From NCBI RefSeq assembly GCF_000150955.2, contig NC_011682.1:248001-312000 (forward strand): DNA of 64,000 bases, given 5' to 3'. The notes beneath the pieces were generated by a model that saw only the letters and a program-made list of their open reading frames with translations, ran no database searches and had not been told where the DNA came from. A program made the position numbers and the translations under genes. This DNA comes from Phaeodactylum tricornutum CCAP 1055/1 (taxonomy: Eukaryota > Bacillariophyta > Bacillariophyceae > Surirellales > Neidiaceae). Below are positions 2,640 to 43,062 of the stretch, one piece after another; within the stretch, counting starts at the first letter, position 1, and every line of letters starts with the position of its first letter.

Positions 2640-5600
2640 TCAAGTGTAGACTTCACCTAGAGACCGTTTTTTGGTCCCTTGCAGCTTCTTTGTACCGCAG
2701 GCGCCGCACTTCCGAGCTGACTTAGCGTTATGAAGAGTACATGTAGGGCATTCCCATTGCTTCGACAACTGGGCAGGAGCAAGCGAATGGTCTGAGGATT
2801 CTCTAGCCACTGTCGATATCGAATCTTGAGTCATTTCATCCTCACATGCCCTTGCCAACATCCCTTTGGCGCTCGCGGGACTGCTCTGAATACTATCAAC
2901 GGGGTGGCTAAGACCGATTCCTGATGACGTCTCCACGTCTCCGTATTCTAAGGCTTTGTTCAATTTTGACGCATTTTCAGTCTTCTGCTTTGGCTCGGCG
3001 GCCGTGTCGGAACGGCAGTCCAGGCCACATTCAGGATCTATATTTTCCTCTTCGTTCAAGGATGATAAGTGCTGACAATGAGCAACTTGAAAGGGATCCT
3101 CGGAACTAGAATCCACCAAAGAGTCCGCAACGGAATCTGCTTTCTTTTCTTTCTCGGCTTTCTGCATTTGTGTACTCAATGGAGACCCAGATTCAGGTTT
3201 TTCGTCCAAAAGTTCTTTTTCATCTTCGCTCTCCTGAATATTTTCGAGTTCCGCAAGAGCCAAACGCTCCTCTTCGTCTTGCTGACGCTGCTGGATGAGA
3301 CTCCAAGTCACTTCCAGACCAAACACAAAGGAAACAGAATCAGTTCCTCTCATTGCTGCTCGGAAGATCGGATCATCTACAGTGTCACTTGATTGGTGAT
3401 GAGACCAATGGCGCATATTTTCCTCATCCGGCATCCCGATTTGCTCTTGGTAGTCTTCGCCACGCTCGTTGTTCACAATCGCACTAGAGCCCAAGATGTC
3501 AATGGCGTTCTCGTTTTCGTCCAGAGATTTGTCGTCGTCAGCCTTCATTGACATAAGACGGGGCACCAGAGCTGTCCATCGCTCCAACCAAACGCTTTGC
3601 AGTCGACGAGCAGCGTCAGCAATGTCATCGCCTGGGGACCAAACTTTCAATACGTTGGCAAAAATACGGTTGACGTCTTTGGAGAAGGTGGAAACGCTTT
3701 TGTAGGCTGCCGACTGGTCAACTTCCAGGGTAAGTTTGCTTGAAATGGTTCCAAAGTCCATAGGTTGCTTCACAAGCTTTTCGTACTCATCCTTAGCACG
3801 TCCATGCTCTGTTGGTATCAAAGGTTTGAGAAAGAAGGACGAGTCCTCCTGGGCCTTGATGTCCTCCAGCAACTCGCGACACGCTGCCAGTTTCTTGGGC
3901 AAAACGTTCATGGCTTCCATTTCGGCGTTGTCATGGATAATCTCGCACCGTTCACATCGGAGCTTGTCGTGAGTATCAGAAGGCGTTCCCGTTCGTAGTT
4001 TGAACAAATTCTTGAGGTCTTTGGTTGATAGCTGATTGGTCTGTTCTTTGTCGTCGACCACGGACTGCAGTCCCTCTTTTGAGAGCTGGCGCTGGAAAAT
4101 CTTTTCTTCCACAGTTCCGGTTGCCAAAAAGCGATACGTAAAGCACCGTTTCTTCTGGCCGTCACGCCAGCATCGAGCTGCAGCCTGCTTATCCACCGCA
4201 GGATTCCAGTCGGGATCAAACAAGACCAAACGGTTGCCCCCAATCAAGTTCAAACCACTGGTGGCGATAGAGTAACATCAAGAAAACCGTGAGCAAATCT
4301 TCCGCTGAAAATGTATGGGACGACAAGTACAGACGAGAACGTTTATGTACGTACCATCCACCGGCTTTGCTGGAAAGCAAAAAAGCGACGAGGGGCGAAT
4401 TGGGGTCGTTGAATTCGTCACACATTTTCTGTCGCTTTTTCATCGTGATGGATCCGTCTAGACGGCAAAAGCCCCAGGAATTTTCGCGACACATGCGTCC
4501 AATGAGATCCAGCGTTTGCGTGTAATTGCTCACAATGACAATCTTATCGTTACCGTTGCCCGGTTTGCGCATTTCCTTCATAAGGCGGTAGAGAACAAAC
4601 ATTTTACCGGACCATTCGGGGCGTACGGGAGCAAAGTCTCCCCGTCGGCCGCCTCCTTCACCGGGAACATACGGGAGAAATTTGGCAATGCCGTCCGCTC
4701 CCGGTGCGGCCATGGAAGCCTTGTCGTCGTCCTCGTCCGTGTACTTGACTACTTTACCACCCCGTTTGTTACTTGGGCCCACCGCAAAGCTTTTGTCTTC
4801 TTCTGCCACCAGGCTGGGATGATTGGCGAGCTTCATTAGCATTTGAATAGATGAAAGACAGTTGACTTGCTTGCCGTCCAAAACGTGTTGCATGTCTTTG
4901 CTGTTGACGAGATGTTGGTACATATTTTGTTGAATTTCGGTCAGATTGCAACAGACAACTTGTACGAGTTTCGGTGGTAGGTGCTGTGCGTTGAGCGTAT
5001 TGACCCGGCGTAGAATAAAATCGTTGACGATCCGACTCATATCGTTTTGAATTTGCATCATTTTGTGTTTTTGGGCGTCGGAGGCGTCGGGCTCGCGTCC
5101 GCGCAGAATCGGGAAGAGTGTTTTGCGGCGGAATTCTTCCGGCGTTCCCAGTATGCCGGGATTGGTAAAGTCCACCATGGCGTAGAACTCTTGCAAGTCG
5201 TTCTGCATGGGCGTTCCGGTCAGAAGCACCCGTCGTCGGACCGGCAGGGAATTGAGGGCACGGGAGGTTTGGTTGTCGCTGTTTTTGAGGCGGTGTGCTT
5301 CGTCGCAAACGAGCAAATCGCAGCAGTCGGCGTGTTTGGACAGACGCCCGACGTGGGTCCGGATGCACTCGTAGCTGGCAATCATCACGTTGAATATTTT
5401 GGTACGCACAAAGGTATCCAGGTTGCGTTCGACGGTTTTGCGGTCGGCTTCGGCGATTGCCAACGTTTTGACTACCCCCGGTCCGAGCCATTTGACGAAT
5501 TCGTTTTCCCAATTTTTGACGAGACTGCAGGGACAAACCACAATGACCCGTTTCGCGGTCGGGGCTCCGTTGGCAGTGATGCCAGTTTTGAGCAGCGTAT

Positions 5601-6469
5601 GAATGAGTGTGACGGACTGTAGGGTTTTGCCGAGACCCATGTCATCGGCTAGAATACTGTCCCGAACAAGGACAAACGGAAGAAAATAGAGGGTGTCAGT
5701 CCAGGGCCGCCGAGGCCAGGGTAAAGCAGCAAGTCGTCCGAGCGTGCCCCAAAGTTACGTACCAACCGTGACCATTGAAGTCTTTGAGACCCATGACACA
5801 TTCGTAGATAAACTGTACACCTTCTCGTTGATGAGGTCGTAGCCATTTGGCCAGGACGGGTGGTACGTATACGTTCTGTTTGCTGTAGGCGTGTACTGGA
5901 GCCGGACGCAGGACCGTGACGCTTTCTTCGATTCCATTCTCGTCCGGCCGGAGTTCCGTAACGACGGCAGGAGGAAGGCCTTTGGGTTCGGCAGGGGCTT
6001 GGCCATTGGACTCCGCTGACGGGTGCGGACTGGTCCAAACACAGAGCGGTTCGAAGGGCCGGTCCGGTTCCTTCTCTTCGTCATCACTGTTGTCGGAGTC
6101 GTCCGTTTCGTCGTCAGTGTGTTCCGATTTGGAAGCCAGATTGGGAAGTTTGAAGGTGAGTCCACGTCCGGCCCGCGCCATGAGTTTGGCCATACCATCC
6201 ATTCGGCGCTTGGGCCCGAGCGACGACTGTTGGAGCGCAACTTGCGCGTGCTTGCCGTAAGCCCGCCGTTTGAGCATGGGACGCTGGAACTTTTTCTGTA
6301 AAGCGGGACACGAAAGACCGGACAGTAGCGGAGCTCTTTGGACAATCATTCGGGCGCCGGGTGCAAAGAGCTTGGAGGAAGACGTCACTTTGATGGGTGG
6401 AGCATACGGACGGCTTATGCCGGGGTTGTCCGACGAGGACGACGGAAGCACTTTGCGTTTGAATAACAT
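2640..6469 (-). CDS. RAD54: RAD54-type SNF2 helicase with C-terminal bromodomain and RanBP2 zinc finger
   Basis: Swi2/Snf2 DNA translocase of the RAD54 family, acting with RAD51 in homologous recombination in the nucleus. Three exons on the reverse strand: 6469-5763, 5656-4355, 4257-2640 (1208 residues). Both introns interrupt strongly conserved motifs, giving [14 protein letters not shown]-like Walker A ([16 protein letters not shown]) and [16 protein letters not shown] after splicing, which supports the model. The DEAH box is [10 protein letters not shown]. The SNF2 core covers about residues 205-520 and helicase C about 560-740. Beyond the usual RAD54 end is a bromodomain-like segment (about 795-905; [41 protein letters not shown]). 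The position of the acetyl-lysine Asn reads Trp. A RanBP2-type finger ([10 protein letters not shown]...CGACG) lies near the C-terminus. The tail between these modules is acidic and low-complexity. Confidence 0.9.
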
Positions 6470-6925
6470 CTTATACTGTCAATGCCTTTGTATATTCAAC
6501 GAGACGAAGGCTATAGCGGAAGCAATGCCGTTCAACAACACTCACTGTCAATTTCTGCGCGGGGCACCGTGTGTGCCTGGGGTTGGCGGTAGAAATGCGA
6601 TTGTTCCCTGTACGAAATCCACGTATACCCCTACGGAGGATTCTAGAACACGATGGCTCGAATCGAAACCTTCGCCACCGGGTTCGTCCGCTTGTCAGAT
6701 AATTGCTTGTCAAGGTTCTCGCAAGCAGACCATTCTGTCTAGAAAAAGTCCGATTGAAAACAGTTGCGTCGACAAAAGCAGCGACATCAATTTACATGTC
6801 CGACCGGTTACGATATCCAGCGACATCGTCTACCTAGTCTATTCGGCTCGACGCCCTCCATGGGAATCTGCCGTTTCAGGGAGGGTGTGTAGTATACACA
6901 CAATCTTCTCTGGACATCGGTCAGC
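6470..6925. promoter_or_regulatory. Bidirectional promoter region, RAD54-like / C2 gene
   Basis: The 456 bases lie between two divergent start codons. The 9-mer ACTGTCAAT occurs twice (about 6476 and 6546), related to the TGACTGTGA family that recurs in intergenic DNA of this window. No TATA box was convincingly placed. The promoter role is inferred from gene orientation only. Confidence 0.4.
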
Positions 6926-9338: not shown

Positions 9339-9929
9339 TCTCTTTTTCAAGGCGGCGATTCGGAACAAATACTGTGAAAGAGACAAGAATGGTTGGGTTG
9401 AATGAGGTTGCTGTGGGCTCACTGTGAGTGCAACGGACTGTGAATTGACGATGGGTAGCTCGTGAGTACGCCTTTGGAACCCCGGTGGTTCCGTTCGTGT
9501 TCCCGGAGAGACTGTTATCGTCGGCAGCGGCCGAACGACACCGAACAAAAGTCGGCCGGAGTCGAGTCGTCCTGTCCCGTCCCGTGAGCAGCGTCAAACG
9601 GTACTCATTCCCGTGTAGGGATTCTGCCGACGGATAGTAGTAGCGACACAAAATATAGTTTACAAAACCGTTGTTTACAGGTAACAGTCAATTTGCACTT
9701 CTCGTTGGTCTCCTCCGTCTGGCCGGGCTCGGAAAATAACTGACTGTGAGATACTTTCCGAACGAAATGAAGATGACCTCGACGCACGGCACCAAGGCTG
9801 GGATAGCATGGCCATGGAGGCCCAGGCTTTTCTCTTCGTAAAGAGGGCTTCCCACACATCCATCCCAGAGAAAGTCATAGAAACGGATCCTCTTTCGATT
9901 GTCAATTGAAAGAACTGATCTACACAAGT
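9339..9929. promoter_or_regulatory. Divergent promoter region, YKT6 / SRPRA
   Basis: About 590 bases between two divergent starts. It holds one copy of the over-represented 9-mer TGACTGTGA (9741-9749) and related pieces (GGACTGTGAATTGAC near 9428, AACAGTCAATTTG near 9686). No coding potential beyond shadow frames was seen. Confidence 0.4.
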
Positions 9930-11555
9930 ATGCTAGAGTCTTTGACGATATTTGCCAAAGGAGGCTTGGTTTTGTACCAATACGTTGCGAACCCGTCACT
10001 TCTTGGAGCATCGGATGCGGAACAGTTTACGCAACAATCTCTCAATGAACTCATAAGCACCGTCATCCTCGACCCAGCTTCCTCCAACAAGACATTCCAC
10101 ATCAAAGAACGGGTGACGTTCTGTTGGCTGGACAACCCGGACAAGTATGTGATTGCGATTTATCCCGATATCATGTTCGAAGGTCCGCGCGAATATCTTA
10201 AAACATGGGTACAAGGCTTACTCCAATCGACGCTTCACGAGTACAGTCTATTGGAGAAGTCGGTGGTATACACATTACGGCCGGATCCGGCACTTTTCGA
10301 TCCGACGTTTCAGGTGTTGCTCAAACAATCCAAAGGCGAAAAGGCGACCGGTACGACGGCCATGACGGCAGCCCATTCCAGCATAGAATCAACAGCAAAA
10401 GACAGTGACGCCAGGAAAAAATCTGGCAAAGAAAAGCGGACTTGGCACGATGGAAAGGGTAAAGTAACAGCGGAAGCCATGGCCGAACTCGACATGTCCA
10501 AACAAACCGCAGGGGATCCCAAAGACGGTGAAAGTCGGGCACTGGCTGAAGCCCGCGCTGCGTATTTACCGACCGATGATGACCTCGAAGAAGAATCGGT
10601 GGAAGAAAAAGTGGATGAAAAAAGCTGGGCATCCTCCGTCACGGGCCTAATGCAATCCTGGACTGGAAACAAGACGTTGAGTGATGCGGATTTGGATCAG
10701 CCACTCAAGTCTATGGAACAACTTTTGACGAGTAAAAATGTAGCCCGGGAGGTGGCACACGAACTTTGCTTAGGCATACGTGGGAAACTTGAAGGAAAAA
10801 AGCTGAATTCTCTGTATCGTGTGCAAACGGCGGTAAGGCAGGCTTTGGAATCGACTTTGACCAAAATGCTTAAAATGCACGTGGACTTGCTGCGAAACAC
10901 AATGTCCAAACGAGGTGACAACTCTTTGTTCAAAATGAGCAAACGTGCTCCCTATGTCATTGCGGTAGTCGGGATCAATGGGGTGGGTAAGAGCACCTCG
11001 TTGGCCAAATTGGCATATTATTTCAAGCAGAACGGTTGCTCTCCATTATTAGTGGCGGGTGACACATTTCGTTCCGGCGCTGTCGAACAACTCAAAGTTC
11101 ACGCTTCTTGCCTAGACATTCCTATGTATTCACAAGGATATTCCAAGGATCCATCAATAGTTGCAAAGGCAGCCATTCAGCACGCTACGGAAGAAAATCA
11201 TGATGTCGTACTGATCGATACTGCGGGACGCATGCAAAATAATGTTCCACTTATGAAAGCCTTGGGCAAGTTGGTCACAGAAAATAAACCAGATTTTGTA
11301 ATTTTGGTTTGCGAGGCTCTGGTAGGCCATGACGGCTTGTCGCAATTTACGATGTTCAAACAGGCGCTTGGGATCCGAGGTATTGACGGTCTGATATTGA
11401 CAAAGTTTGATACAGTTTCGGACAAGGTTGGCGCGGCATTGACTTTAACACACCAAACCGGAGCTCCTATCATCTTTTGCGGAACTGGTCAAAAGTACCA
11501 TCACCTGAAGAAGCTCAGCGTGACGTCTGTAATTCAAAGTCTTTTTGCGTCCTAA
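9930..11555 (+). CDS. SRPRA: Signal recognition particle receptor subunit alpha
   Basis: SRP-docking GTPase at the ER membrane that couples ribosome-nascent-chain targeting to the translocon. Single exon; the ATG at 9930 gives MLESLTIFAKGGLVLYQY, matching the usual SR-alpha start, so the upstream in-frame TTG is not used. Domains in order: SRX longin-like domain (about 1-135, binds SR-beta), a charged linker rich in Glu/Lys (about 140-260), then the NG domain. The GTPase motifs are G1 GINGVGKSTSLAK, DTFRSGAVEQL, G3 DTAGRMQNN and G4 TKFD, followed by GTGQKYHHL. Total 541 residues, somewhat shorter than the human protein because of the linker. It converges on the SerRS-like gene with 38 bases between stops. 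Confidence 0.95.
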   Translation: MLESLTIFAKGGLVLYQYVANPSLLGASDAEQFTQQSLNELISTVILDPASSNKTFHIKERVTFCWLDNPDKYVIAIYPDIMFEGPREYLKTWVQGLLQSTLHEYSLLEKSVVYTLRPDPALFDPTFQVLLKQSKGEKATGTTAMTAAHSSIESTAKDSDARKKSGKEKRTWHDGKGKVTAEAMAELDMSKQTAGDPKDGESRALAEARAAYLPTDDDLEEESVEEKVDEKSWASSVTGLMQSWTGNKTLSDADLDQPLKSMEQLLTSKNVAREVAHELCLGIRGKLEGKKLNSLYRVQTAVRQALESTLTKMLKMHVDLLRNTMSKRGDNSLFKMSKRAPYVIAVVGINGVGKSTSLAKLAYYFKQNGCSPLLVAGDTFRSGAVEQLKVHASCLDIPMYSQGYSKDPSIVAKAAIQHATEENHDVVLIDTAGRMQNNVPLMKALGKLVTENKPDFVILVCEALVGHDGLSQFTMFKQALGIRGIDGLILTKFDTVSDKVGAALTLTHQTGAPIIFCGTGQKYHHLKKLSVTSVIQSLFAS

Positions 11556-14983: not shown

Positions 14984-17900
14984 ATGTACGATCACCGGGG
15001 GCCTCGACAGGATCACAGTCGGGGAATGGAGTGGAGAGGAGAGAGAGGCGGTAAGTATACGGCGGTGTTTGCGCTTTAAGAGGAGATGGCACACACTGAC
15101 GGATCCTTGTTTCTTGTCGACAGGGAGAAACCCACAAGATCGTTCCCGCTCGCGCGAACCAATGATAGAGCCAAAGCGTCCTTTTTCTCTGACCGTCCAA
15201 TCGAATATGTTTGCAATCAAACCATCCAACGCGACCATATCCCAAAAGGTCTACATGTACGACGTCCAGATTCAAAGAGCCAAGAGAATAGTGGAGAAAG
15301 ACGAAGCAACCGGACGCTTCAAGCTCGATTCCGATGGAAAAATTATTTCGTCCGTGGAAAATGCCGGCAGCGCAGGGTTTTTTTCAGAAGGGGCGACTAC
15401 CACAACATCTTCCGAAGAGCCCAGGATGAGGAACAGGGCGGGTCCTCTTTCGAGGCGGATTTTGATGAAGCTTAAGATTATGCTGGAGAACGAAGAGCCA
15501 CCGAAACTGATCTTCACGGACGGGACGGCTAAAGTGTACACCCCTCATCCACTTGCCACTGATCTAGAGCATGGCCAGCAAAACTACTCTTCTGGTCCAA
15601 CAACTCAATCATCCAAACCATCAATATTCTACGACGTTTGCGTCAAAAGAGATTGCGAAGAAGATTTTGAAGATAAGGACTTGGTCCAAAATGCGTGGTT
15701 TAAAGTCCAGCTGACATTTGCTGGAGATTTTGACTTCACAGTTGCGGACGGGGCTTCCAGTTGGACTACGACATCCAAACTTGAAGAGGTCGCGCAGTGC
15801 TTGAATGTCGCTATTCGGAATTCTCTTTTAGCTGCATCAATGATGCCCTTCCGGAGCTCACCACGAATGTTTTATTTTAGGGCTGATGCCAACCAGGATC
15901 TTATCCGCCGTGTCCTAAAGAACTTCAATAAAGAAAAGACGATTACGCCTGTTCTTGGAGTGGTTCAAGCTGCAAGGATGACAGGTGCTGGTGAATTGTT
16001 TTTGATCGCGGACTTTGGGCTCGGATGGGCACAGCGTGAGATGTTAGACGGTGTCAATGGGCAGAAAGTACGCGTCCGTGTCCTTGATGAAAAGGCGAGC
16101 ACAATTGCAGGGATAAGAGTGCCCAGTTTCAGAAAACGAATTCCAGACAATCTAAGATCAACCATAGAAAGCTCTCTGAAGAAAATGTCTTTTCATATTG
16201 AATTTGAGTGGTAAGTTGAAGGCTCCATGGCTGCTGAATGCTGCGAACGCTGTATTCTGAGCTTTCTTTTTGGCCTTTTTTCCAGCGGCGATAAATGGTA
16301 GGTTCGACACGATGGTCTTCGGATCTATATAGGATGTGAATAGCACACCTGATATCTTGTTGCTTTCAATTACAGGGCTGAACGTAAGTGCGCTTCATAT
16401 GGTGTTCCTCCATCGATCAATGGATTTGCTCCCGCACGAAAAACCAAACCGTCTTTTTGTTTTCTTGGTACCCTTCAGGAAAAAGGGCCGAGGGGATGGA
16501 TGATGAAAAAATTCGAAGAGGCCGGAAAAAAGTCCGTGGAACTAGATTCTTGTGGACTCGGCGTCACGACCGAGTTGATGAAGCACCTATTGTTTGGAAT
16601 CCTGCTCAGTACACTTTCGAAATTTCCGGTAGAGATGGTGCTGGCTACACAACGACACACACAGTTCTCTCCTACTTTGATCAAGTTTACGATGTTCAAT
16701 TAAAGTATCCGGAGGTAAGAAAAAGTAGCTCTCTACTGACTGAAGCGCAAACCCTGGTTTATTCATCGTTTGCTCATGCCTTTTATCTGTATTTCAGATG
16801 CCGTAAGATTACTCCTTTCATTCAATTTAAAGTACATGGGCTTGGGCTCACAATTCGCTTCTTGCTTTGTAGACTTGTTCAAACTCGTGGAAAGGAATAC
16901 TTTCCAATTGAGATGCTCTTTCAAGGTACGGTTGAGTCTGTGAACTTTGGCATGTTGCGCTGGACTTGTTTTGCTCACGAAATGTACAATGAACAGGCGT
17001 CGGAGAAGCTCATGGATGTAATTCAGATTTTAAAAAGGAAAAGGCGCTGGCGTTTAACGACGAGTTTTCTGCAAGCCGTCGTGTCAGCAAATTGAAAGAC
17101 ATTTTGTCCGAGCCAAACTTGGAGAAATCACAAAACCAAGCTCTCGCGAGCTTCCAGCTCAAGCTACATCGCGAGCCGCTGCAAATGCAAGCAACCGTTC
17201 TTGAGCCCCCTGTTTTGAGTTTTGGATCAGCTGAGCGAGCTGTTGTAAAAAACGGCTCGTGGAATCTATGGAATCAACAACGGAGAAAGACATCCGAATT
17301 CAATGTCCCGGTACAACTTTTGTCTTTTGCCGTGTTGGATATGTCAAAGGATGAGATTTCTGGAAAAATCATCGAAGACTTGCTCAGAGTTCTCCAGAAG
17401 CATGGTGTCCAAATTCCCGACGTAGGCGCTGATTCTTTAAAGTCTATGATAGCGAATGTGACAGTGAGATGCTTTGCAGCAAACAAACAACAGGTATAAT
17501 CCAGTTAGCATTCTGACGCGACATAAATATCAATGCACACGATCTAAGCTTGTCACTTTTACCATTCTGCAGATTTGGGTAGCATTCAAGAATAGTATAG
17601 CAAGGGCAAGACAGCACTTTTTCACCGAGTCCAATGTCTCATTTGCGTACTCACGAACCATTGCTTTTTTTAAAGAGCACGGTCTCCAAGAATGTCTGGT
17701 GATACCCCACGTCACTGCTCACTCTTCAAATTTGTTTGTTATTCCCCCAGCCAAGGTTGCCCGCTGGTGTTACGAAGTCCAATGTCCCGCAGACACTACA
17801 CTCTTTGCTCCGGCACGGAGAATGTACAAATGCAAGGTTCGAAACCTAAGAGAAATGGTGACTCTTGACCCCTTCGATTTGAAATTAGAAAATGGGATAT

Positions 17901-19838
17901 TTAAGGGACTGGTTGAGAAAGCATGGCTTGAACTGGAGGTTGTTGAACCCATTTATCATGGTAAGCCAAAAGCAGCATTATTGATGGCAAACACAAAGTC
18001 GCGTCTTTCTCAACAATTCTCTTACAGTCTTGATCAGAGAGAGAACATCAACTGAGCTCTTCGACGAGATTTTCGCTCTAGGGGAGGATCAAGTCGTAAA
18101 TCCAGTACCCTGCTACTCCCTAGCGAGCAAGGACGTTGAATGTCCATCCTTGATGTTTGCAGTCATTCCCACAAAAGATGTCTCTACATATGCCTTTGTA
18201 AAGTACTTGTCACATGTGGAATTTGGAATTCCCGTGAGTCTATCGCTGTCGTTTTCCAAAGCTTCTTCTAGCCCGATAGTAGCTAACGATTTCCTTGCGC
18301 TTCGTAGTCCCAGGTTATGGTTGAGGAGAGCTACCAAAACCAACGCTCGAAAACAGAGGCTTAGTAAGTTTCACCGTCAATCACTCGTCTGCCCGGCCCC
18401 TTTCAAGGCACTTCGAAAGCTTACTCACTCCTTCTACAGCTGTGCGGGTATAGCTTTAAAGCTCAACACAAAGCTAAGCAACAGCTTAAACAGGTCGACT
18501 GCATGGAGCATTTACAGTGGAACTGCCCGTCAGTGGTTGATGGATACTCCGACGATGATTATGGGGTACTGTGTTGCGTCTGGTAAGTGAAAGGAGCTAC
18601 GAATTTTCCAGTTTATATAGCTGTGCCGTTAACTCTGATTCACTGTCCTCTGCGAAGGACCCGGACAGGACTCGAAAAGTATAGTCGTAGGTACTGCGAG
18701 TCTAGACGTAGGTGGCACACACTGTTGCCATGACAAGCGGGTACAGAGCAAAAGCCATATTGTCGATAGCGATGTCCTGGAAGAGATAACTGAGGTACGC
18801 AAATGTCCCTTGTCGTTTCTGGAGAAGTCTCATTTCTAAAACTCAATCCTGTCGTCACACTTTCAGAGCCTTGCAATGCAGTTCTTTCTGTACAACAATG
18901 TCAGTCCCCAACGCATTTTGGTGTATCGCTCAGGCGTCCAAGATGGGCTTCTACAAGGTATGACTTGTATCTTTGATTTATTTGCTATTCAATGGCGTCC
19001 AATAGCTTACACTGGGTGAACCTTCAGACGTCGTAGAGTACGAAATAGGAGCAATTAGACAAGCATTTTATCGCTTGAATATGAGCGACCCGGCCTGGTC
19101 GTGCGAGAATTGCAAGGGAAACACTCTCAGAGGTTGTGGTATGTACAAGCGGCGGACCATCAATCCAAACTGATGTATCATGATTGCATTGGACTCAACA
19201 TTGAGCATTGCGTGATTTGCAGTGCTGTGTTGCCCTTCGGTAACGTTTGTTGTATCTCAGGGACAGCATGATATCCGTATAGTCCCATTGGATGGCGTGC
19301 AAATGAACCGATCCAATAACGTACCCAGTGGCACATGTGTTACCGACTCCCGTGCTATTTCGATGAGCAGTCTTAATGCAGTAGAGATGAATTCACAGTC
19401 TGGAATGTCTCAGCCGGAAAGCACTGTTGAGAATACGATGGACTTCTTGCTTGTTCCCCAAGGAGGCCTAAAGGTATGTGTACTTAAATTATCAAAGATT
19501 CCGAAGTCCTGTACCTAAATGCCCAGTGTCTTTCGCAGGGAACGTCCAGGCCTGTATACTACAGATGTCTTCTAAACGAGACAAAGCTTACCCGATCACT
19601 CTTAAAGAATCTCACGTACCAGTTTAGTTTTCAATACGGGACTGCCACAAAGTCTGTACGCAATGTTCCGGTGCTTCAGTATGGAGTGCGGCTTGCGAAT
19701 ACAATCTTAAGCTACCTTGGAAATGTCCCTATGGACGAGTCAAAACATGTTTTGCACGAGACATTCCTGCCATCACGAGACGAAAATGGTGTTCCCGACA
19801 GAAATTGGGTCCCTTTTCGCCCACACATATCAGCGTGA
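14984..19838 (+). CDS. AGO: Argonaute (PAZ-MID-PIWI), slicer residues apparently lost
   Basis: Small-RNA-guided silencing protein. Seventeen exons join without a frame break into 1215 residues: 14984-15050, 15124-16210, 16286-16297, 16376-16383, 16479-16714, 16798-16802, 16873-16925, 16997-17493, 17573-17960, 18028-18233, 18309-18364, 18440-18582, 18658-18794, 18867-18957, 19028-19138, 19223-19473, 19539-19838. All introns are GT-AG. The N-terminus is Arg/Gly-rich. PAZ (about 400-530) includes YPEMPLVQTRGKEYFPIEML; linker 2 includes MQATVLEPPVLSFG; MID keeps YAFVK, SQVM and LKLNTKL (5'-phosphate pocket Tyr, Lys, Gln, Lys, Lys). PIWI (about 870-1200) keeps VTFVVSQGQHDIRIVP and KGTSRPVYYR. The catalytic D-E-D-H positions read Cys (GYCVASG), Ile, Ser (YRSGVQDG) and Gln (VPQGGLKGTSRP). 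Exons 3, 4 and 6 are 12, 8 and 5 nt long. Confidence 0.9.
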
Positions 19839-20040
19839 ACGTTTGAAAGACACTTCAATCAAACAAAGTGATCTTGTCTAACGCATATCGCTCGTGACAA
19901 CGGTTTTTACGAAGCCAAAGCCTTCATACTTCAAGTGAAAGGAATTACATTAACCCTTTTTCATTGCGTTCGGAAGGCCGAGTGCAATAAACAAAGGTAA
20001 ATGCGCTTTCGCTCTTCATTACTTCACGGTCAAGTCTGCA
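19839..20040. other. Argonaute 3' flank
   Basis: Contains the presumed 3' UTR; an AATAAA-like AATAAACAAAG lies near 19987. No gene seen. Confidence 0.3.
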
Positions 20041-21360
20041 TCTTCTGTTCAAAATCTCTAATTACAGCAGTTAATCAAATACACGATCTATTTTCATAAA
20101 CTCAATTGTAGAAATGTTTAAGGTAAAAAAAACTGTGAAATAAAGAGAGAGCAAGCGATATGGTCCAGCCTTGACGGATTTTTTCTTGCAGCATATTTGG
20201 TGACCAGACCCTAAGCAAGATGTACACTTTACATCAGCAATTAAAAATAGCACTCAAAATTATACGACAGAAATAATTCTAAAAAACATCGAGAAAGATG
20301 ACCGTCTCGTACGTCCTTTAATTTAATTGAGTAGTATCGAAATTTGCTATGACAAAAATATTAAAAAATTAAACTCCAAATCTAAGGATAACTTACACTT
20401 TACGAGATTCTAAATGGATTATAGAATCGAAGAAGATTGTGTTTACAAACAAGTTTGCTTCCCATGAACAACTCCACATCAGAGAATACGGTTACAGTGT
20501 TTTTGACGAAATGAGCCAGCAAGCAACCTTACCGGACGAAAAACGTTTGTCTCAAAGAATTTCTATCGGATGTTTAAACTTTATCTCACAGGTGTGATAT
20601 TCAAAACAAGGTTGAAAATGCTTTTGCTGCTCGAAAATTGTCGTGAACCGTACAAGCTTTTCCAGCAACTCATACTAATTTAATTACCTATCATCTTTTT
20701 GTAAGGTTTGGAATTCTCATTTTATACAACGTGACAAACAGCAGAAATCATCCTTGTTGAAATTGTCGTCAGTGGAAGGTTTTGGAAATGTTCAAGTCTT
20801 CGGAAATCTGCAATTTGTAGTTTCAAAACCTTTTTGAAAGAGAAAAAACCTTTATGTCTGAATGAAGCGGGCTTTGTCCGTAATTTTAACAATCTTTTGC
20901 AATAGAAACTTTTACGAATCTCTGTGGTTCAACTTTCGAGCTGATTCTAATCACAAAATACTATCGTTACAATGTATTTCATGAGGTTTTAATGTAACTT
21001 TCTTAATGAACCTTCGGTATTCACGCCGTTTCTTTTCACATTGGGTGGCTTCTGTGCTCCTCCATGCTGGCCAGAAAAAGGCTTTTTCCCATTTAAACTT
21101 GTTTCATCACAGGTATTAAACGCGAATTTCTTTCTTGCTTCGTGTCTTTTTAAGTCAGCAAGAAAGAAAATAAAATATCGAGAAAATAAATAAGTTCAGA
21201 TCACCGTTTAAACGTACCTCCAACTTTACTTTTTTGCTATACTGGAGTAGAGATATACCAAACAAATACTACTAAGATTCCATGCTAGTATTTTTTATAA
21301 ACTGAATTCATTGCTAGCCATTTTCTTTAATTGCTTAAAAGTATTTTATTTGTCTTATTT
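20041..21360. other. Low-GC gene-free tract, centromere-like by composition
   Basis: A hand count over 22 lines gives about 441 G+C in 1320 bases, near 33%, dropping to about 29% at 20221-20460 and 21121-21360. Flanking genes are near 45-50%. No open frame of note, no tandem repeat, no RNA gene. Established knowledge: P. tricornutum centromeres were reported to be defined mainly by short stretches of very low GC rather than by repeats. This tract meets that description, but composition alone does not prove function. Confidence 0.4.
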
Positions 21361-21658
21361 TTTTTTTAGACGCACCATGTGTCCAATCTGAAAACCAACC
21401 TGCCCTCACTTCTCGGACTCTACCACACCGCAGCGCTTGTAGGGATATTGTCCGGATAAAATCATGCAAAATATCGTTCCAGATGAGCGCGCTCGAGCTC
21501 ATAGTCTGAAAGGAACTAGCTTTCTTTGCCTCTGGTTTGACCGACTGTTCAGATATTCAGTCGAAAACATCCAAGGAACGGCCACAGCCTCCGCGATCAT
21601 TTAATGGAAAATGATTCTCCAAACGCCAGGAAAACAAAATTACGGTGGGTACCATCTA
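21361..21658. other. Unique intergenic sequence
   Basis: Moderate-GC sequence between the AT-rich tract and the inverted-repeat element. Nothing recognised. Confidence 0.3.
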
Positions 21659-21977
21659 TAATACTGTCAATTCGAAAGTTACATTCACTGTACGGTAACA
21701 GAGAACATTTTGTATTTTGAAGTTACAGTTAGTGCTACTATTTTCGCGCGGGCGACAATCAAGAGCTGTTTGACAGTGGAAAGATAGACCGACTTAAGCT
21801 CTGACAATGAATAAGGTTTTCACTATCAATCCTCTCTAGAGAGTGTGTCCTAAAATTCAAAGTCACAATCAGCGAAGAATTTATGTTGTACAATTGACTA
21901 GTAGAGGGAACTTAGAGTTACATTAGTGATGGATTTACATTTACTGACTGCTTCTAGGATTTCTGTAGATTTTTAGG
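21659..21977 (+). repeat. Left terminal inverted repeat
   Basis: Left arm of the 1.25-kb element; runs from TAATACTGTC to TTTTTAGG. Its reverse complement is at 22585-22908 with a handful of mismatches. Confidence 0.85.
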
Positions 21978-22156
21978 TTCTGTTGTTATAGGAAAGGTTC
22001 ATAGTCAAGAATAGGATTCGAGAGCAGCCCTATAAACTCTACTCCTTGCTGCTCAACTTCATCATCTACACTGGTTCGCACTCTCTACAACACAGCCAAA
22101 TAAGGATATCTATTCACAGTCAGTCGAAATTGCATGCATTCTTCATTGATATCTTA

Positions 22157-31889: not shown

Positions 31890-33302
31890 TTAGCTTCCAT
31901 GCGTTTTGTCGGGTGTCGTCTCCGATGATGGGAGTGTTACTGTAATCTCGGCGCCCACAACTTGTTTCTGCTCGTAGCCACCGATCAAAATTGAATCATC
32001 ATCTCGATACCCTACCCCAGCCTTGTCATACACCTCCAAGTTTCCGCCTCGCACTTTCCAGCCTAGATTTAAAATTTCATTCACACCCCTTTCAGTCCCA
32101 ATGTTACCCCAGTATTCCTTTCGAGTAATCAGTCGATGTCGGTAAGCGGCCAATTGAGTCAAAACGAGCGTTCCAAATAATGTTCCGACGAAAAGTCCCA
32201 GCCCTAGATACCTGCGCCAGTCCCAGTCCTTTTGATCCAATGGAGTCGTAAAGGAGCCTACATCCCGTAGTTTACCATCCGAAATACTTGGTGCCTGAGT
32301 GGGCTTTCCGATTGGAGTCTGGGGAGGTGATGGAATTGGATTCTCGTCAACGGGCGGCTCAGCAGTAGCACCTTCAATCTGGTGAAACGAATACCATACC
32401 TGGATGAAATCGTCGTGCGTTTCGTCGTCCATCCACTGTTGAAACAACCTACTATTGATTGCTGAGAACAGTACATCTTTGATTTGTTGGTCCACCGAAG
32501 ATAGAATGGACGCGTCAGTAACTGCCTCTGTTCCTTCTGGCCAGTAGCAATGATAGGTTATGTTATACTGCCACCACCAACGAGACTCACGCTTATGGAC
32601 CACTTTTGAACTGGTGTAGTCATGGATCAATAAGAAACCCGCGACTTGAGCACGTGTATTATTTGTGCTCAATAAGCTTCGATCATCCAGATTGCCGTCA
32701 TTGTCTTGACGCTGCGGTATCGCAAACATGTAATTGTCTTTTGCCATGGTGGTATTCAGAAAATGGGTAGTCACCCAAATGATCGTATGGCCAACACTTG
32801 GTTGCCTAGGACGTAAAGCAGCGTATAGCGTTATTTGAACGTCATTCGAAACAGTAGATACTCCGGTTGGACCGTCTGAGCCGCCGAAATCTGTGTCTGA
32901 GGGTGCTTGTGTAACTATGCCTTCCCCATTCTCGCCAGAATCCTCGCCTTCGATACCATCGCCGTCGCTGCCACCGACGCCTCCCTCGCCCGGGAGTTGT
33001 TCAGCGTCCGCTACTGGATCTCTACAGGGCAAACTTGTTCCGTTGTTCCCTTGGTAACTCCACCAATAGTCGTCACACTCTGGATTTCCCTTTTCCGGTC
33101 TATCCTTTTCAGCATTGCTATACGGGGTGGATGAATTTGTCAAGATTCTGACAAGGTCCCGACGACTTCCGCGCACTGGGGAGGGTCCTCGACGAGCTGA
33201 TGCAACGTTCCCAATGTTTATGGCTTCGACGCCGCTCACATGCAACAAAATTCGAAGAGGCAGTACTGCTACTACAATAATCGCAGAGAGGCGTTGTCTC
33301 AT
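31890..33302 (-). CDS. Type I membrane protein, tandem paralogue 1 (unknown function)
   Basis: Not assigned to a named family. The long frame begins at 33473, but the ATG at 33302 starts a good signal peptide (MRQRLSAIIVVAVLPL...SGVEA), as in the paralogue at 41704, so that start is preferred (470 residues). Next come a basic RRG segment, a conserved Cys pair around EKDRPEKGNPECDDY and LPCRD, an acidic low-complexity linker, an outer domain (LRPRQPSVGHTIIWVTT, FLNTT, SRWWWQYNITYHCYW), one membrane helix (YLGLGLFVGTLFGTLVLTQL), and a 75-residue inner tail that is the best conserved part (VYDKAGVGYRDDDS, VVGAEITVT). N-glycosylation sequons occur in the outer domain. It seems diatom-specific; a surface or endomembrane role is inferred from topology only. 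Confidence 0.7.
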   Translation of the reverse strand: MRQRLSAIIVVAVLPLRILLHVSGVEAINIGNVASARRGPSPVRGSRRDLVRILTNSSTPYSNAEKDRPEKGNPECDDYWWSYQGNNGTSLPCRDPVADAEQLPGEGGVGGSDGDGIEGEDSGENGEGIVTQAPSDTDFGGSDGPTGVSTVSNDVQITLYAALRPRQPSVGHTIIWVTTHFLNTTMAKDNYMFAIPQRQDNDGNLDDRSLLSTNNTRAQVAGFLLIHDYTSSKVVHKRESRWWWQYNITYHCYWPEGTEAVTDASILSSVDQQIKDVLFSAINSRLFQQWMDDETHDDFIQVWYSFHQIEGATAEPPVDENPIPSPPQTPIGKPTQAPSISDGKLRDVGSFTTPLDQKDWDWRRYLGLGLFVGTLFGTLVLTQLAAYRHRLITRKEYWGNIGTERGVNEILNLGWKVRGGNLEVYDKAGVGYRDDDSILIGGYEQKQVVGAEITVTLPSSETTPDKTHGS

Positions 33303-33870
33303 CCTTAAGACAGCAAAACCTCTAAAAAATTCTTGACCGTGGGTCGAATGTGAATCGACAATCCTACCAACTGTAAAACAGCCGTCATTGTCACCAAGGC
33401 GCGAATTCACGTTTTTTCGCGCACCGTTGAATTTCGTCAACATTTCACGCCATCGTTCTATCAAACGTTCCATCTACATTCAACAGTCGAATGAACACGA
33501 GCTCCAGTATTGTTTTTTCCCCTTGTTGTGTTGCTTTTAGCTCCATCCTTCACGAAAAATCGGAAGAATTAAGAAATTGTCTGCGTGTTCCTTTTGACGT
33601 CGCGTGTTACTTTGCAAAAAGTGGGTATACGCAGTTTTTGGCACGGTTGCTTGACGACGGCCAAGAGCCCGCGCACTACCTATCATTATTGAATTCTTTC
33701 TGTAATACCATTCGTCTTTGTCATGTCGCTTGACATACTGCTCCGCTTCGGCGGAAAGCATTCTTTCCGTGGCCTGACAAATCGATCAAAAGCACTCAAG
33801 ACGACTTGAAGTGCAGCTTGTAAAGTGCTTGCCTTACAGCTCACAATAAAGCAAAGTGAGCACAGCATCC
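33303..33870. other. Upstream region of paralogue 1
   Basis: Promoter side of paralogue 1 up to the retroelement. The last four bases (ATCC, 33867-33870) are repeated beyond the far LTR and are the likely target-site duplication. Confidence 0.4.
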
Positions 33871-34019: not shown

Positions 34020-37000
34020 GTCCCCTCACATTGAGACCATGAACATAACCTTGGCGAAATGTGTCCCCTCAAAACCACAATGGGAAAAATAGGGAACCAA
34101 ATAAAAATAAAACTTCGACACTGCATGCAATGACAAATATAATGCAAATGCAATTTGTCCCAACATTGAACCTGTTGAGAACGGGAAAATTGGCAAACCC
34201 TTCTTCTAACTTGAATCACCATAAAATACTTCGTATAATAGCCTGTCTCACTGGACCTGTTTGAACCTTCGTAAGTATATCCGCTAAATTTGACTCTGAT
34301 GGTTCATATGCAATCTTGATCACTTTCATGGCAACATTCTCTTGTACAAAATGATATGCTATTGCGTTACTTTTCTTCTTCAACACTGATTCTGGTGCCG
34401 TAGTATTGTATACAACCGACATATTGTCACAAAGAACTTTAGCCGGACCATCAATAGGAATGCCCATCATACGTAACTTGTATTGTAAACCTTGTATCAT
34501 CTCAGTAGCAATCTTTAATGCAACAAACTCACTACCAAAAGTAGACGTTTCAACTGAATTCTGACGCTTCAAGAACCACATAATTGGAGAATGATTGATA
34601 TAAATCAAAACACCTGTTCGAGAACGACGAGTAACACGGTCTCCCGCATGGTCAGCGTCAACAAAGGCTATAATCTCCACCACCTTACCACGTGGTTCCG
34701 GAGCATTCGGTGGAATTGGCTCTTTAACATCACCATAGAAATCTGTCCAATCCGCATCATCGTTAAAGCTGTTGTCAATCACCGGATAAGAATCATCAAA
34801 TACCAATCGAGACTTGTGATGTGACTTCAAATATCCGAAAATATGGAAAACTGCAGCTAGATGTCCTTCACGCGGCATCGCGAGAAAAGATGAGAGCATA
34901 GACACCTCACACATTATATCAATGCGACCAATTTCAACTGCCCATCTCAAAACTCCTATCTGTGACTGGAAATAGTTAGCACGTTCCGCATCCAACACAG
35001 GGGAAACATCGAGTTCCGGTCGATAATTTGACAATATAGGTGACGTAATCTTTGTAGATAAACGTTTTCCACCTTCATCCAAATCCTTTTCAACATTTGC
35101 AACTGCCTGTTTCACATAATTCGTGGAACTCATCGACCATCGCTGTTTCGATGGATTATCGGGAAGCGTAAAAATTTCCAAGATTTGCTCCCAAATATAC
35201 CTCGGGCGTCTTAATTGATTCAGGCTTGAGTTTAAAATGCATACCAATCGAATCCAGAATCTTCTTCGGATCTGTACTGATACATAGGAAATCATCGGTA
35301 TAAATAAGCACATACTCATAGTAATTTGTACCATCATGTTTCTGAGCTGGTCTAAGCCAAACATCTGGATCTGCAAGACAAGAGATTAAATGCAACTCCT
35401 CCATTGTCGCAGCTAAGTGAGCATGCCATGCTGCCCCACTCGACTTCAAACCATATAACGCACAAACAATAAGTGCATAACAACCTTGCACTGACTTTCC
35501 GAACTCTGGACCACATGTTGTATATACCTTTTCGCGAACTGGAGCATTCAAATAAGCTTTCTGCGCATTGGCACCAAGTATATCCAATGAATTCAAAGAT
35601 GCGATGAGTAAAGCAATTCTAACACTATTGCGCGAAGCAACACTGGCATATGTAATTGAACTCGGCGGATCTGTAACATGTCCCCCGGCGACGAATCTGG
35701 CTTTGCGAGTAAAATCCATTTTGATATCAAATATCATGTGACATGGTATCCATGTATGAGCTACTGGTTTAGGAGCATCCTGATCGAGAATTGTAAATGC
35801 TGGCATAACATTTGTCATTTCCTTCTTGATCGCATCCGACCACAACAAAGTGTTAGTATCTCGGTCAATCTCGAGAGCTTGCTTGACCAATTTCGGCATA
35901 CAAATACCAAACTTGTGAGTCCTTTTAAGGTATCTCGTCTTTACCGCTGAAATAATACAATCACATTTCTGCAATACATCCGGTACCCACCAAGCAAAAG
36001 CTGGCTCATGAAGCAGTTTGTTAGCAACGGCATATTCGGCAACTTCAATTGGATTTGATTCCTTCAGATCTTTGAGAGGAAACCAAGTTGTAGATCCGTC
36101 CTTCCATTGCAATAATAACGCCCAGCCTTTAGTGGTCCGTCTTATGCGTTTCACACCATGTTTGTCCGTATAATACATATCGTCAGGTGCGACTGCCGAT
36201 CCATCCATCCTGTGATCAATGATCTCATCCACTATTCGAAACCGGCGTCCTTCATCATCCACCTGCGTATATAAGTGTCCCGCAATAACGTTAGCAGCAA
36301 ATTCCTGCACATTACCGTCTGGGAACTGGACTTCCATAACTCTCGTATTCAAAACAGGATTGGGATGCGATTTTCCTACCAAGTTACCATCGCGATCCTT
36401 TTTACACGCAATGACTGTTCCAGTGGTAGCAACGTCCTTGTACGGTAACACAACTTGAGCATCAAGGTATTCATCAAAAGCTTCGTGATCCAACTCGTCC
36501 GCTTGAGGCATTGGCGGCTCGTCCCCTGTCGAATCATCTGAATAAGTGCAAAATACATTATACTGTTCAGGAAACACAGGGGCAATGGCATCATCAAAGT
36601 TATTATAGCTCAAAGTTGCGTCAAATGAGGACTTGTCTAATTGCACCTCCCTGGAATTAAGATCAGCTGTAGAAAGTGGCGAGTAAGAAGTTCGAGATAC
36701 CACTTGACCACTTCAAACAAGTATACGCACACACATAACATCACCAGTATCATGCGCAGGACCGAGCCAGCGACCTAGATTCCGTTTGTCTTCCGGAAAG
36801 TCGACTGGGTCTAAATACCATATCCAATCATACCAAGCGAATTCACACAAGTGGCTAATATCCATAGTATCACCCGACACTGCCGTGTTTGGTACATCAT
36901 TGTTCAATGCATAAACGTTGTGAGCAATTGACAATCGAATCAAACTTTGCAACTCCAGGCAAAAATTCCATAAATATAAAGGTGCAGATGACTTTTTCAT

Positions 37001-40000
37001 AGCCATGTTAGTCATGCGCTTCAATGCTCTGATTGCAGTCTCAGCTCAATTCAACCACGGTGAGTAAGGTTCAATCTATCTAGCATGAGATCCTGCAGCA
37101 CAAACCTTCCGTCTGAATTCACCCTGCACCAATTCTTTCGCGCCATTGGAAATAATCTTGGCTGGAACACCTTCTCAATGAAACAACAAATCCAATGTCT
37201 CATGGACATTACCTTTTGACTTCATAGCATAAGCACGTGTCCAATCAAGATCATTGACGTAAATCTGGGCACAGGTATTTCCGCTCAAAGACATTACACA
37301 AGAAAACATTGTATTTGTATACACACTTGTACGGAGATGTCGGTATCTGAGCTGACTTGTAGTTGGCTTGACTCTCTGTGTTAGAGTCCGACTGGCAATA
37401 TCCTTGACTCCTCTCTGAGTTGTAGCCAATAAAGTTCGTTTCGCTGCAGATAAACCGATATTCCAACATCTGGCTAACTCTTCCGGAGTAACTCTGTACC
37501 TGTAATTCGACAACTGAGCAACACTCACAAGACATGTCTTTTCGAGTGCTTCGACAAAATGCTGTTCATTGAGTGACACCCAAATACTAGACAACACAAC
37601 TGATACTGTACTTTCGTGTGACAAAACCATTTGAATGCTTGCATGACCGGATTGTCTCGTTACCAAAATACCTTTGCTATCGGTATACTTCTCCTCCTGA
37701 CGAGGAAAATCCGTTGAATAAGGATCCCAAATGGGATTGTCATACATGAGAGTCAACTTGTGAAAATTTCGAAACTCCTCTGGAGACGGCTTTCGCACTG
37801 GCAAATACGAAATCACACCATCTAATTGCAGATGCAATTTAAGATTCTCCTTCGGAAAATAAATCAAATGTGACAAATCCGTGGGGTTTTCAAGTAAAAA
37901 TCTTGGGCAATCATAGACCTGCACATTGTTTAACCGGAGCTGATTCGGATTTAACAAATTATGTTCCATGGTAGGAAAGTGCAAGGCCTGATGAATAATT
38001 AAAATAAAAGTCTCATATGTGTAAGGATGATCATATGCAAGAGCAGCAGAGACAATTGGTACAGACCGGGCTTGTCCCAATGTAGATAAAAATGCAGAAA
38101 CATCAACCGTTCGAGAGGTTTCGTGAAATATATAAGTGTTCTTTCCGACGCAACAAGTATCCGTGTGAGAATCTAACTCCGCATGTGATATAAATGCACT
38201 CTCCAGTGACTGTATAGAGATAGAACGTGTTGATACCACCGACATATTCGAACTTCTCTGCGACATATTTCGACCTGCCAACAACTTTGAAGTAAGCAAG
38301 CTCGTATCTTCACAACTTGTCTTCCATTTCTTGTCATCCTCCTTTTCTTGAGAATCAACAGTAGAAGCATTGCGTTTACCACCAGCTTCTTGACGTAACG
38401 TATGTAAGTGACGCTTCTGTTCAGCATTCATACTCTTGTATTCATCAAAGGTATAATACTTATCCACCATGCCCTTGGTAGAACCTTTGTTGAAAACACC
38501 TTTATCACCGCGTCCACCGCGACCTTTATTACATCAACCTGATCCTTTACCTCGTCCTTGACCACAACCAGATTGACCTGACAAAATATTCCGAAGCTGA
38601 GCTTGATTCTGTTCTTCAATAAACTCACTGAGGAAATCCACTGTGGCTTCAAAATCATTTTTCAAAGATGGGTTAGCACAAACAGTGGCAATTGCAGAAT
38701 TGAGAAACGATGCCTGAATCCGTTTCAAAAATTACCGAACTTTTGCAGCCTCTGTCAATGGCTCTCCAAACTCTTCCAGATCTGTATGAGCTTGCTGATG
38801 AATCTCAGCAAAACTTTCGAAAGTAAAGTTACAACGCTCTCCGTTGTAAAACTTTGACTCAAGATCACCTTCAGCACGCGTCATAATCTTTGACTGATTA
38901 GTTGGTCCCAAATAATGCGAGCAAAGTGCAAACCAAGCCGCACGACCATTACGAGCTCGAGCATAAGCCGACACCCAACTCCAAGTAGGACCACCATGAG
39001 CACAAACGCGAAAAATAGACCACACCTGAGCATTATCTGCTGCATAGGACTCTTCTTCATGAGGACATTGCGCTATCATTTCTTCAAACGCATCTTGATA
39101 GTCGTTATCCGGACCTTCAGGAACTTCTTTGTCTTCACAAATGACATAAGCCAATGGAACTCCCGTTGTTCCTCGAATTTGGAGCAAATATTCCGCAATA
39201 TTTTCAAAGGCATCACGGATTTTCTTCAGGTCTTCAATTTGTCCAGGAGCAACAAGGTCTTTCTTTAACTCTTTGTCTTCCTTCTCACGCTTCTTGATCT
39301 CAATCATCGAGAAAATACGTGCCGCATTGAACTGAGCCGGATAAGGCCGAGAAGTGCGCTTGAGGTGACGAACATAATATGCCAACAATACAAGACGCTC
39401 CTCCGCAGTGGGTGAAATTGCTACACCATTGCGAGGAATCATGGCCGGGGCTCCAGGTTGTTCTGCGTTAGGATTCGGAAGCGTACCCCCGGGACGACGG
39501 ATGTTCTTACACATATCCTTGATGAAATCATCCGTTGCGATCTCGAAAACATCCATAGACATAATCGAATCCGTGATAGCATCGCGTTGTTTGACATCAA
39601 CAATGCCGATTGCTTGTAAAGCATTTCGAACTTGAGCTAAAGCAGCTGCCATGGTCAACTTTTGTCTTCTTCACCTGTCTTAAATTTCATAAAACTTCGT
39701 AAGCTGGTTTGACAACATTCAGTGTTCTTTCTGCACCACGTGAACACGAGAAGTATTGATCACTGATAACATCACATGTGAACACCACATAAATACCATA
39801 TAAGTGATATCAATATTGAATACCGTTTGAGAACCATTTCAATAAAACGCGACGAACACCATTTTCATGTCGCAAACCATAATACGAGATATCTGGCTGA
39901 TATCTATCAGAGTGGAGGATCCACGATTACCGTTTGGTACAAGTCCGATAATTGTTGCTGTATAAGTAAATGTTCCATGCAAACAAACTACTTATCATCC

Positions 40001-41703: not shown

Positions 41704-43062
41704 TCAACTAGTCTGCGTCATATCAGGAGTGGTCTCTGACGATGGATGCGTAACTGTGATCTCGGCTCCCACAACCTCTTTTTGCTCAAAGCCTCCAATC
41801 AGCATTGAGTCGTCATCTCGGTAACCGACACCAGCCTTGTCATAAACTTCCATGTTATCGTTTCGGACTTTCCAACCGAGCTTTAGAAGCTCATCAACTC
41901 CTTTTTCAGTACCAAGATTTCCCCACAATTCTTTCCGCGTTAGCAGTCTTTGACGGTAGGCCGCGACTTGTGTTAAAAGTAGAGTTACCGATACAGTTCC
42001 TATAAAGAGTCCGAGACCAAGGTATCTCCGCCAGTCCCAGTCTTTCTGATCCAAAGGAGTAGCGAACGAACCATGTTCTCGAGAAAAGCCAGCTTCTGCG
42101 AATGCCGGTGCCGTGGTGGGCGCTGTTGCAGGATCAAACGGTGAAGCAGGACTACGACCGCTATTTCCGTCTTCGAGCGAGTGTTTAACTTGTATGGAGT
42201 CATCGAGTGTCTCTTCAATAATCCACCTTTGAAAGGAACCGTCGTCGATGCCGGAGAATAGCGTTGCTGAAATTGATTGATCGATGGAATCCAGGATCGA
42301 CGCATCCAAGATAGCGGCACCACTATCCGACCAAAGGCAGTGATAGGTTAGATTGTACTGCCACCACCAGAGAACATCATCTTCTCGAACCACCTTTGAA
42401 GTAGTGTAGTCGTAGACCATGCGGTAGCCATTTCCGTTGTCTCTTTCCAGCTTCCGACGATCGTTCAACCTATCATCGGTTTCACGTTGCGGTAAATGAA
42501 AAACGAAGTTTTGTGCAGCAGTAGTAGTGTTCAGAAATTGGGTAGTCACCCAAATAAGACTGTGGCCAATACTTGGCTCTCTGGGACGCAATCCTATGTA
42601 CAACGATACTACGACATCGTTCACAACATTTGGTGAAGGAGAACCTGTCGGATCGACAGTGACTACCGTTTCGGGTGCTCTGGTATCTTCACCAATATCT
42701 CCGGTAAAATCATTATTGTCGTCCTCGTCATCATCCTCAGTATCGTCGTCAGTTCCGCTGAGCAAGCCTTCACTGTCATCTTCTTCAATATCAAATTCGC
42801 GGCAAGGCAGGATTGTTTCGCTGCCCAAGTAGTTCCATTCATACTCGTTACAGTCCGGATTTCCCTTGTCGGGTCGATCCTTTTCCTCTCGAGAATAGGG
42901 TATTCTCCTCTTTACCCTGGATCCCCGACGAATCATTGGAGTATGTCTACTAGGATCTAGTTGACCTTCTGGAACAAAGTCATAGAAAGCTGCGGCGTTT
43001 CCGAATTGTGCAACGGCGGCAAGCAAGAGGACAGGTACTCCCATCGACGTCACGGATTTCAT
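41704..43062 (-). CDS. Type I membrane protein, tandem paralogue 2 (unknown function)
   Basis: A clear duplicate of the gene at 31890-33302, in the same orientation. The ATG at 43062 gives signal peptide MKSVTSMGVPVLLLAAV...NAAAF (452 residues); the frame upstream begins only at a TTG. Shared order: RRGSRVKRR basic segment, KDRPDKGNPDC and LPCREF Cys motifs, an Asp-rich linker (DDDTEDDDEDDNND), LRPREPSIGHSLIWVTT, VLWWWQYNLTYHCLW, a membrane helix (YLGLGLFIGTVSVTLLLTQV) and a highly conserved inner tail (VYDKAGVGYRDDDS, VVGAEITVTHPSSETTPD). The linker regions have diverged most, so constraint appears strongest on the tail and the Trp-rich outer segment. Intronless. Confidence 0.7.
   Translation of the reverse strand: MKSVTSMGVPVLLLAAVAQFGNAAAFYDFVPEGQLDPSRHTPMIRRGSRVKRRIPYSREEKDRPDKGNPDCNEYEWNYLGSETILPCREFDIEEDDSEGLLSGTDDDTEDDDEDDNNDFTGDIGEDTRAPETVVTVDPTGSPSPNVVNDVVVSLYIGLRPREPSIGHSLIWVTTQFLNTTTAAQNFVFHLPQRETDDRLNDRRKLERDNGNGYRMVYDYTTSKVVREDDVLWWWQYNLTYHCLWSDSGAAILDASILDSIDQSISATLFSGIDDGSFQRWIIEETLDDSIQVKHSLEDGNSGRSPASPFDPATAPTTAPAFAEAGFSREHGSFATPLDQKDWDWRRYLGLGLFIGTVSVTLLLTQVAAYRQRLLTRKELWGNLGTEKGVDELLKLGWKVRNDNMEVYDKAGVGYRDDDSMLIGGFEQKEVVGAEITVTHPSSETTPDMTQTS

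Follow-up and report, generated by a model that had tools for sequence, protein, structure and literature searches.

Cleavage of RNA by Argonaute proteins is stated to require a DEDD/H tetrad (PMC6284064; the articles cited here were available in excerpt). Both Argonautes of Emiliania retain DDH (PMC4839659). Brown algae (Ectocarpus), a related stramenopile group, resemble diatoms in having a single Argonaute but differ from the case described here in that the DEDH tetrad is fully conserved (PMC12867755). Among diatoms, the genomes of Phaeodactylum tricornutum and Thalassiosira pseudonana each encode a single AGO-like protein, described as no more than a distant relative of canonical Argonautes (PMC4247016, PMC3145265, PMC4156623, PMC3155517). 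How RNA interference (RNAi) works in diatoms, where it serves as a laboratory tool, is not settled, and the mRNA often persists under silencing (PMC11910954). We analysed a window of 64,000 nucleotides from P. tricornutum (C14:248001-312000; positions below count from its first letter), which contains an Argonaute gene on the forward strand (14984..19838), most likely the one already published for this species. The encoded protein appears to have lost the residues that cut RNA yet keeps the pocket that holds the small RNA, and the loss shared by its relatives suggests that silencing in these algae may work without RNA slicing.

Slicer positions and guide pocket

Two of the four slicer positions read the same in each alignment: Cys916 (TGT, 18570..18572, forward strand, as for all features of this gene) stands at position 1 and Ser987 (TCA, 18930..18932) at position 3, both instead of Asp. 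The other two depend on the alignment. At position 2 (18756..18761) the Glu-finger column falls on Ile954 in ungapped alignments and on His953 once clade sequences of the KTELID type force a one-residue gap. At position 4 (19686..19691) the column that holds His or Asp in other Argonautes falls opposite QYGVRL, giving Val1166 in clade-wide alignments and Arg1167 in the pairwise alignment to human AGO1. In every alignment tried, none of the four positions carried an acidic residue and position 4 carried no His, indicating that the protein lacks the DEDD/H tetrad. The His of SRPSHY-type motifs was also considered as catalytic position 4 and was dropped, since the alignment to human AGO1 puts that column at YYAH/YYAD.

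An earlier note on this DNA had read the four positions as Cys, Ile, Ser and Gln. The Cys and the Ser were correctly placed and the Ile is obtained only in ungapped alignments, whereas the Gln, taken from VPQGGLKG (residues 1110-1117), belongs to the wrong column, the true one lying about 50 residues downstream. The conclusion of that note, that no slicer tetrad is present, holds despite the misplaced Gln, and comparison with human AGO1 restores no tetrad. The residues are not peculiar to one sequence record, as P0001, a 730-residue database protein from another source, carries identical ones at all four positions. Asp codons at positions 1 and 3 would each require at least two base changes.

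In contrast to the slicer site, all five residues that contact the 5' phosphate of the guide (Y-K-Q-K-K) are retained, in agreement with what the note had claimed for the MID domain. They are Tyr839 and Lys843 in YAFVK (18189..18203), Gln855 in SQVM (18311..18313) and Lys879 and Lys883 in KLNTK (18459..18473), and they recur across all 19 aligned proteins of the diatom type described below, with a single exception, Gln to Ser in P0023. Arg812 of AGO2, which some lists add to this pocket, is not retained, its column reading Thr in P0001.

The proposed diatom-type clade and its insert

Protein searches yielded 34 proteins (P0001-P0034), 19 of which were of the diatom type (P0001-P0004, P0012-P0016 and P0020-P0029). 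We aligned 31 of them, that is, these 19 and 12 other Argonautes (P0006, P0033 and P0034 were unused), with the window gene represented by P0001. The first catalytic Asp was present in 12/12 Argonautes outside the clade and in 0/19 clade members, which argues for an old property of the clade and not for an oddity of a single gene. Its place is taken by Ser in ten members, Ala in four and Cys, Gly, Thr, His or Asn in one each. The remaining positions are more varied. Position 2 reads Glu (8), Asp (4), Gly (3), His (2), Ser (1) and Phe (1, in the cut-short P0029) among the 19. Asp occupies position 3 in 14 of the 18 members that cover it (P0029 does not), the others having Ser (the window gene, P0003 and P0028) or Glu (P0004). 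No member has His at position 4, and Asp aligns there in two, P0004 and P0016; the C-terminus of P0016 is disturbed. The persistence of the third Asp in most members indicates that the slicer site was probably lost stepwise, the first Asp early and the others later, and, as judged from the aligned residues, the window gene is the far end of this series.

The clade was separated from the other Argonautes by a branch with 100/100 support both in a tree of 18 rows (9 versus 9) and in one of 27 rows (17 versus 10), the latter built without the cut-short P0029 and P0016 and the long-branched P0010 and P0019; both trees are unrooted and contain long branches. The relatives for which an organism is named, Nitzschia sp. 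Nitz4 (P0004) and Corethron pennatum (P0012, taxid 218684), are diatoms of two classes. P0004 and P0015 form a separate, strongly supported branch, possibly a second line of pennate paralogs, in which the insert is shorter (112-113 residues) and the third slicer residue is Glu or Asp.

A second shared feature is an insert between L2 and MID, which measures 112-175 residues in 15/15 clade members that are not cut off there (the remaining four begin inside it) versus 1-17 residues in 12/12 other Argonautes. In the window gene it was delimited by length comparison and predicted strands to residues 671-822 (17618..18140), mostly in exon 9 (17573-17960), and its predicted secondary structure is mainly beta. 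The insert weakly resembles hybrid Tudor domains, a fold of two interdigitated barrels; its profile was built from 11 of the 19 members, and the member-by-member Pfam scan covered 10 of those 11.

Gene model, domains and surroundings

The Argonaute gene described in the earlier note proved to be real. Removal of 16 GT-AG introns, each 65-95 nt long, joins seventeen exons into an open frame of 1215 codons that ends in a TGA stop at 19836-19838. Pfam Piwi (PF02171) matches residues 827-1172 with an E value of 2.1e-35 (122.9 bits versus a cut-off of 28.9), within a MID-PIWI part that spans about residues 823-1172 (18141..19706). Pfam PAZ (PF02170) matches residues 428-488 slightly below its cut-off (E 1e-5; 25.9 bits versus 28.8), the human PAZ chain 1si2 matches the protein with an E value of 0.00096, and the Pfam match and the alignment to human AGO1 place the PAZ region at residues 427-490 (16583..16998). 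The closest solved structures in the PDB search were human AGO1-4, with AGO1 as the top match, and the predicted model of the protein fits human AGO2, as expected for an AGO fold. The N-terminal tail, encoded by exon 1 and the start of exon 2 (14984..15164), is rich in Arg and Gly, with four RG within the first 100 residues; the RG count over the same length ranges from 1 to 8 in six full-length clade members.

The 3' part of the model is supported by P0001, which corresponds to residues 486-1215 and shares 725 of its 730 residues with that stretch; all five differences lie in residues 632-799, outside MID-PIWI. Its source contig has 2587 bases and the match spans 2926 genomic bases, so the contig lacks introns and is evidently spliced, which lends support to introns 7-16 (10 of 16). 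Exons 1-6 are predicted from the reading frame and homology only. They include three micro-exons of 12, 8 and 5 nt (16286-16297, 16376-16383 and 16798-16802) on which the frame depends.

A scan for repeats near the Argonaute gene showed nothing of note. Directly downstream, window positions 20001-22000 have the lowest G+C content of the window (0.359 versus 0.41-0.55 elsewhere). Further features were judged by eye. Frames at 34216-39670 (-) contain parts similar to gag, integrase and reverse transcriptase, in the manner of a copia-type retrotransposon, and this region is flanked by a pair of paralogous genes at 31890-33473 (-) and 41704-43110 (-) with near-identical C-termini (GLGLFxGT..., KAGVGYRDDDS...). 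The frame at 2640-6478 (-) resembles an SNF2-type helicase, that at 9807-11555 (+) a signal-recognition-particle receptor GTPase, and adjacent frames at 49191-53996 (-) resemble a FANCM-type helicase and include a part similar to a PHD finger.

Proposed function, alternatives and known systems

The reading that we favour, to which we give a probability of about 0.62, is that the gene encodes an effector of chromatin silencing that binds a guide but does not cut, that it is the sole Argonaute of this diatom and that it comes from a clade in which the first catalytic Asp was gone by the time of the common ancestor. An Argonaute that does not cut and has a working guide pocket would act only through what it brings to its target. 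The protein would load Dicer-made small RNAs, presumably the 25-31-nt transposon-derived RNAs reported for the species, and would discard the passenger strand without slicing. The Argonaute-guide complex may then pair with nascent transcripts and bring in histone-modifying factors, perhaps via the L2-MID insert and the Arg/Gly-rich tail, and silencing would be transcriptional or by recruitment rather than by cutting. Small RNAs of P. tricornutum are described as 25-30 nt long, with a 5' U bias and lying over transposons and methylated regions (PMC4247016), and a review reports Dicer-dependent RNAs of 26-31 nt from transposons bearing repressive marks, as well as mRNA still present in silenced lines of T. 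pseudonana (PMC11910954). Together, these reports fit recruitment at chromatin. Also in favour of this reading, the genome encodes an RNA-dependent RNA polymerase (RdRP; 977-residue open frame, C7) and RNase III genes (C13 and C16).

Several observations weigh against this reading. The third Asp is retained in 14/18 clade members and Glu aligns at position 2 in 8/19, so that an unusual metal site may exist in relatives. Diatom RNAi proteins are said to keep 'key amino acid residues' (PMC4247016), a statement that is contradicted for the PIWI site by the residues aligned here. A protein that has lost the tetrad need not act in the nucleus and may instead repress translation. Finally, the genome search was made exon by exon and was weakly sensitive, as the canonical queries (PF02171, the plant AGO1 P0005 and the oomycete P0017) detected no more of the known gene than its last exon.

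The main rival, which we consider unlikely, is that a slicer-dead Argonaute represses translation or promotes mRNA decay in the cytoplasm, comparable to the recruitment exerted by Argonautes of the human AGO1/3/4 type. The residue evidence is the same for both readings, human AGO1 is the top structural match, and the persistence of mRNA in silenced T. pseudonana would suit translational repression even better than chromatin silencing (PMC11910954). In contrast, the small RNAs reported so far are mostly transposon-derived and tied to repressive marks (PMC4247016, PMC11910954), which favours the chromatin effector.

A more far-reaching version of the chromatin effector, doubtful as a whole, would assign a role to the insert. 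Early in diatom evolution, the Argonaute could have become a guide-carrying chromatin adaptor by building a hybrid-Tudor-related reader between L2 and MID and giving up the catalytic site. In a single protein, the guide would then recognise the target transcript and the insert a mark on histones or methyl-arginine, and diatom RNAi would be entirely slicer-free.

It is quite improbable that a second, cutting Argonaute was missed and that the window gene is its specialised nuclear partner. In the genome searched (88 contigs, 27,450,724 bases), the queries PF02171, P0005, P0017, P0001 and P0014 all matched the known locus only, so that no second PIWI locus was seen in this exon-bound search; a degenerate DNA pattern for YRDGVSEG gave 0 matches genome-wide. 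One AGO-like protein is also what published accounts give for P. tricornutum (PMC4247016, PMC3145265). On the other side, the recovery of a single exon by the canonical queries, together with a PAZ query (PF02170) that matched nothing, not even the known Argonaute gene, means that an intron-rich gene could escape, and a diversified set is described in another pennate diatom (PMC3145265). The case that the earlier note considered, a diatom with only this Argonaute, is borne out as far as no other PIWI gene was seen, within the reach of a search by exons, and the gene at 14984-19838 is the only candidate small-RNA-guided Argonaute found.

We regard as very improbable that the protein is still an enzyme in which other residues (Cys, His, Ser and a nearby Asp) form an unusual metal site that cuts despite the lost tetrad. 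Such a site would be in line with the third Asp of most relatives, with Asp or Glu aligned at position 2 in 12/19 members and with residues of the Asp955 type that adjoin the Glu finger in several of them. However, the window gene is acidic at 0/4 slicer positions, and slicing is stated to require the tetrad (PMC6284064). Decay or mis-assembly of the gene is close to refuted: the branch is long (0.9 changes per column) and the sequence divergent, but the 16 introns are clean and the frame open, P0001, from another source, has the same four slicer residues and a MID-PIWI part identical along its full length, which argues against a decaying pseudogene, at least two base changes separate positions 1 and 3 from Asp codons, and the loss at position 1 is clade-wide.

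A clade-wide slicer loss would explain why diatom silencing often leaves mRNA in place, and it predicts that diatoms cleave no targets under guide direction, that loading proceeds without passenger slicing and that silencing works through recruitment. A whole Argonaute lineage would have dropped slicing, and in at least one of its genomes no paralog able to cut was seen, next to brown algae, which kept DEDH (PMC12867755). The conserved insert provides a concrete place to seek the recruiting function. The available excerpts of the diatom Argonaute literature (PMC4247016, PMC3145265, PMC4156623, PMC3155517) make no mention of the loss of slicer residues, of its extent across the clade or of the insert; their coverage is partial, and we do not claim the tetrad loss as unreported.

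Among known systems, Entamoeba histolytica is similar in being unicellular, in that all three of its Argonautes lack a complete catalytic triad in alignments, in its 27-nt small RNAs and in having one nuclear Argonaute, but it differs in its three paralogs, Piwi-type layout and DR-rich tail, and no L2-MID insert is described in the available account (PMC6796981). Human AGO1 shares the AGO fold and an Arg near position 4, matching one alignment of the diatom protein, whereas it retains the first three slicer residues (Asp, Glu, Asp) and has no insert between L2 and MID. Members of the WAGO group of Caenorhabditis elegans bind small RNAs and have, as a clade, lost slicer residues; the group is set apart by its many paralogs and secondary 22G RNAs. 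Non-cutting Argonautes as such, and the divergent single Argonaute of diatoms, were already known; what is new here is that the slicer loss of the diatom protein is clade-wide.

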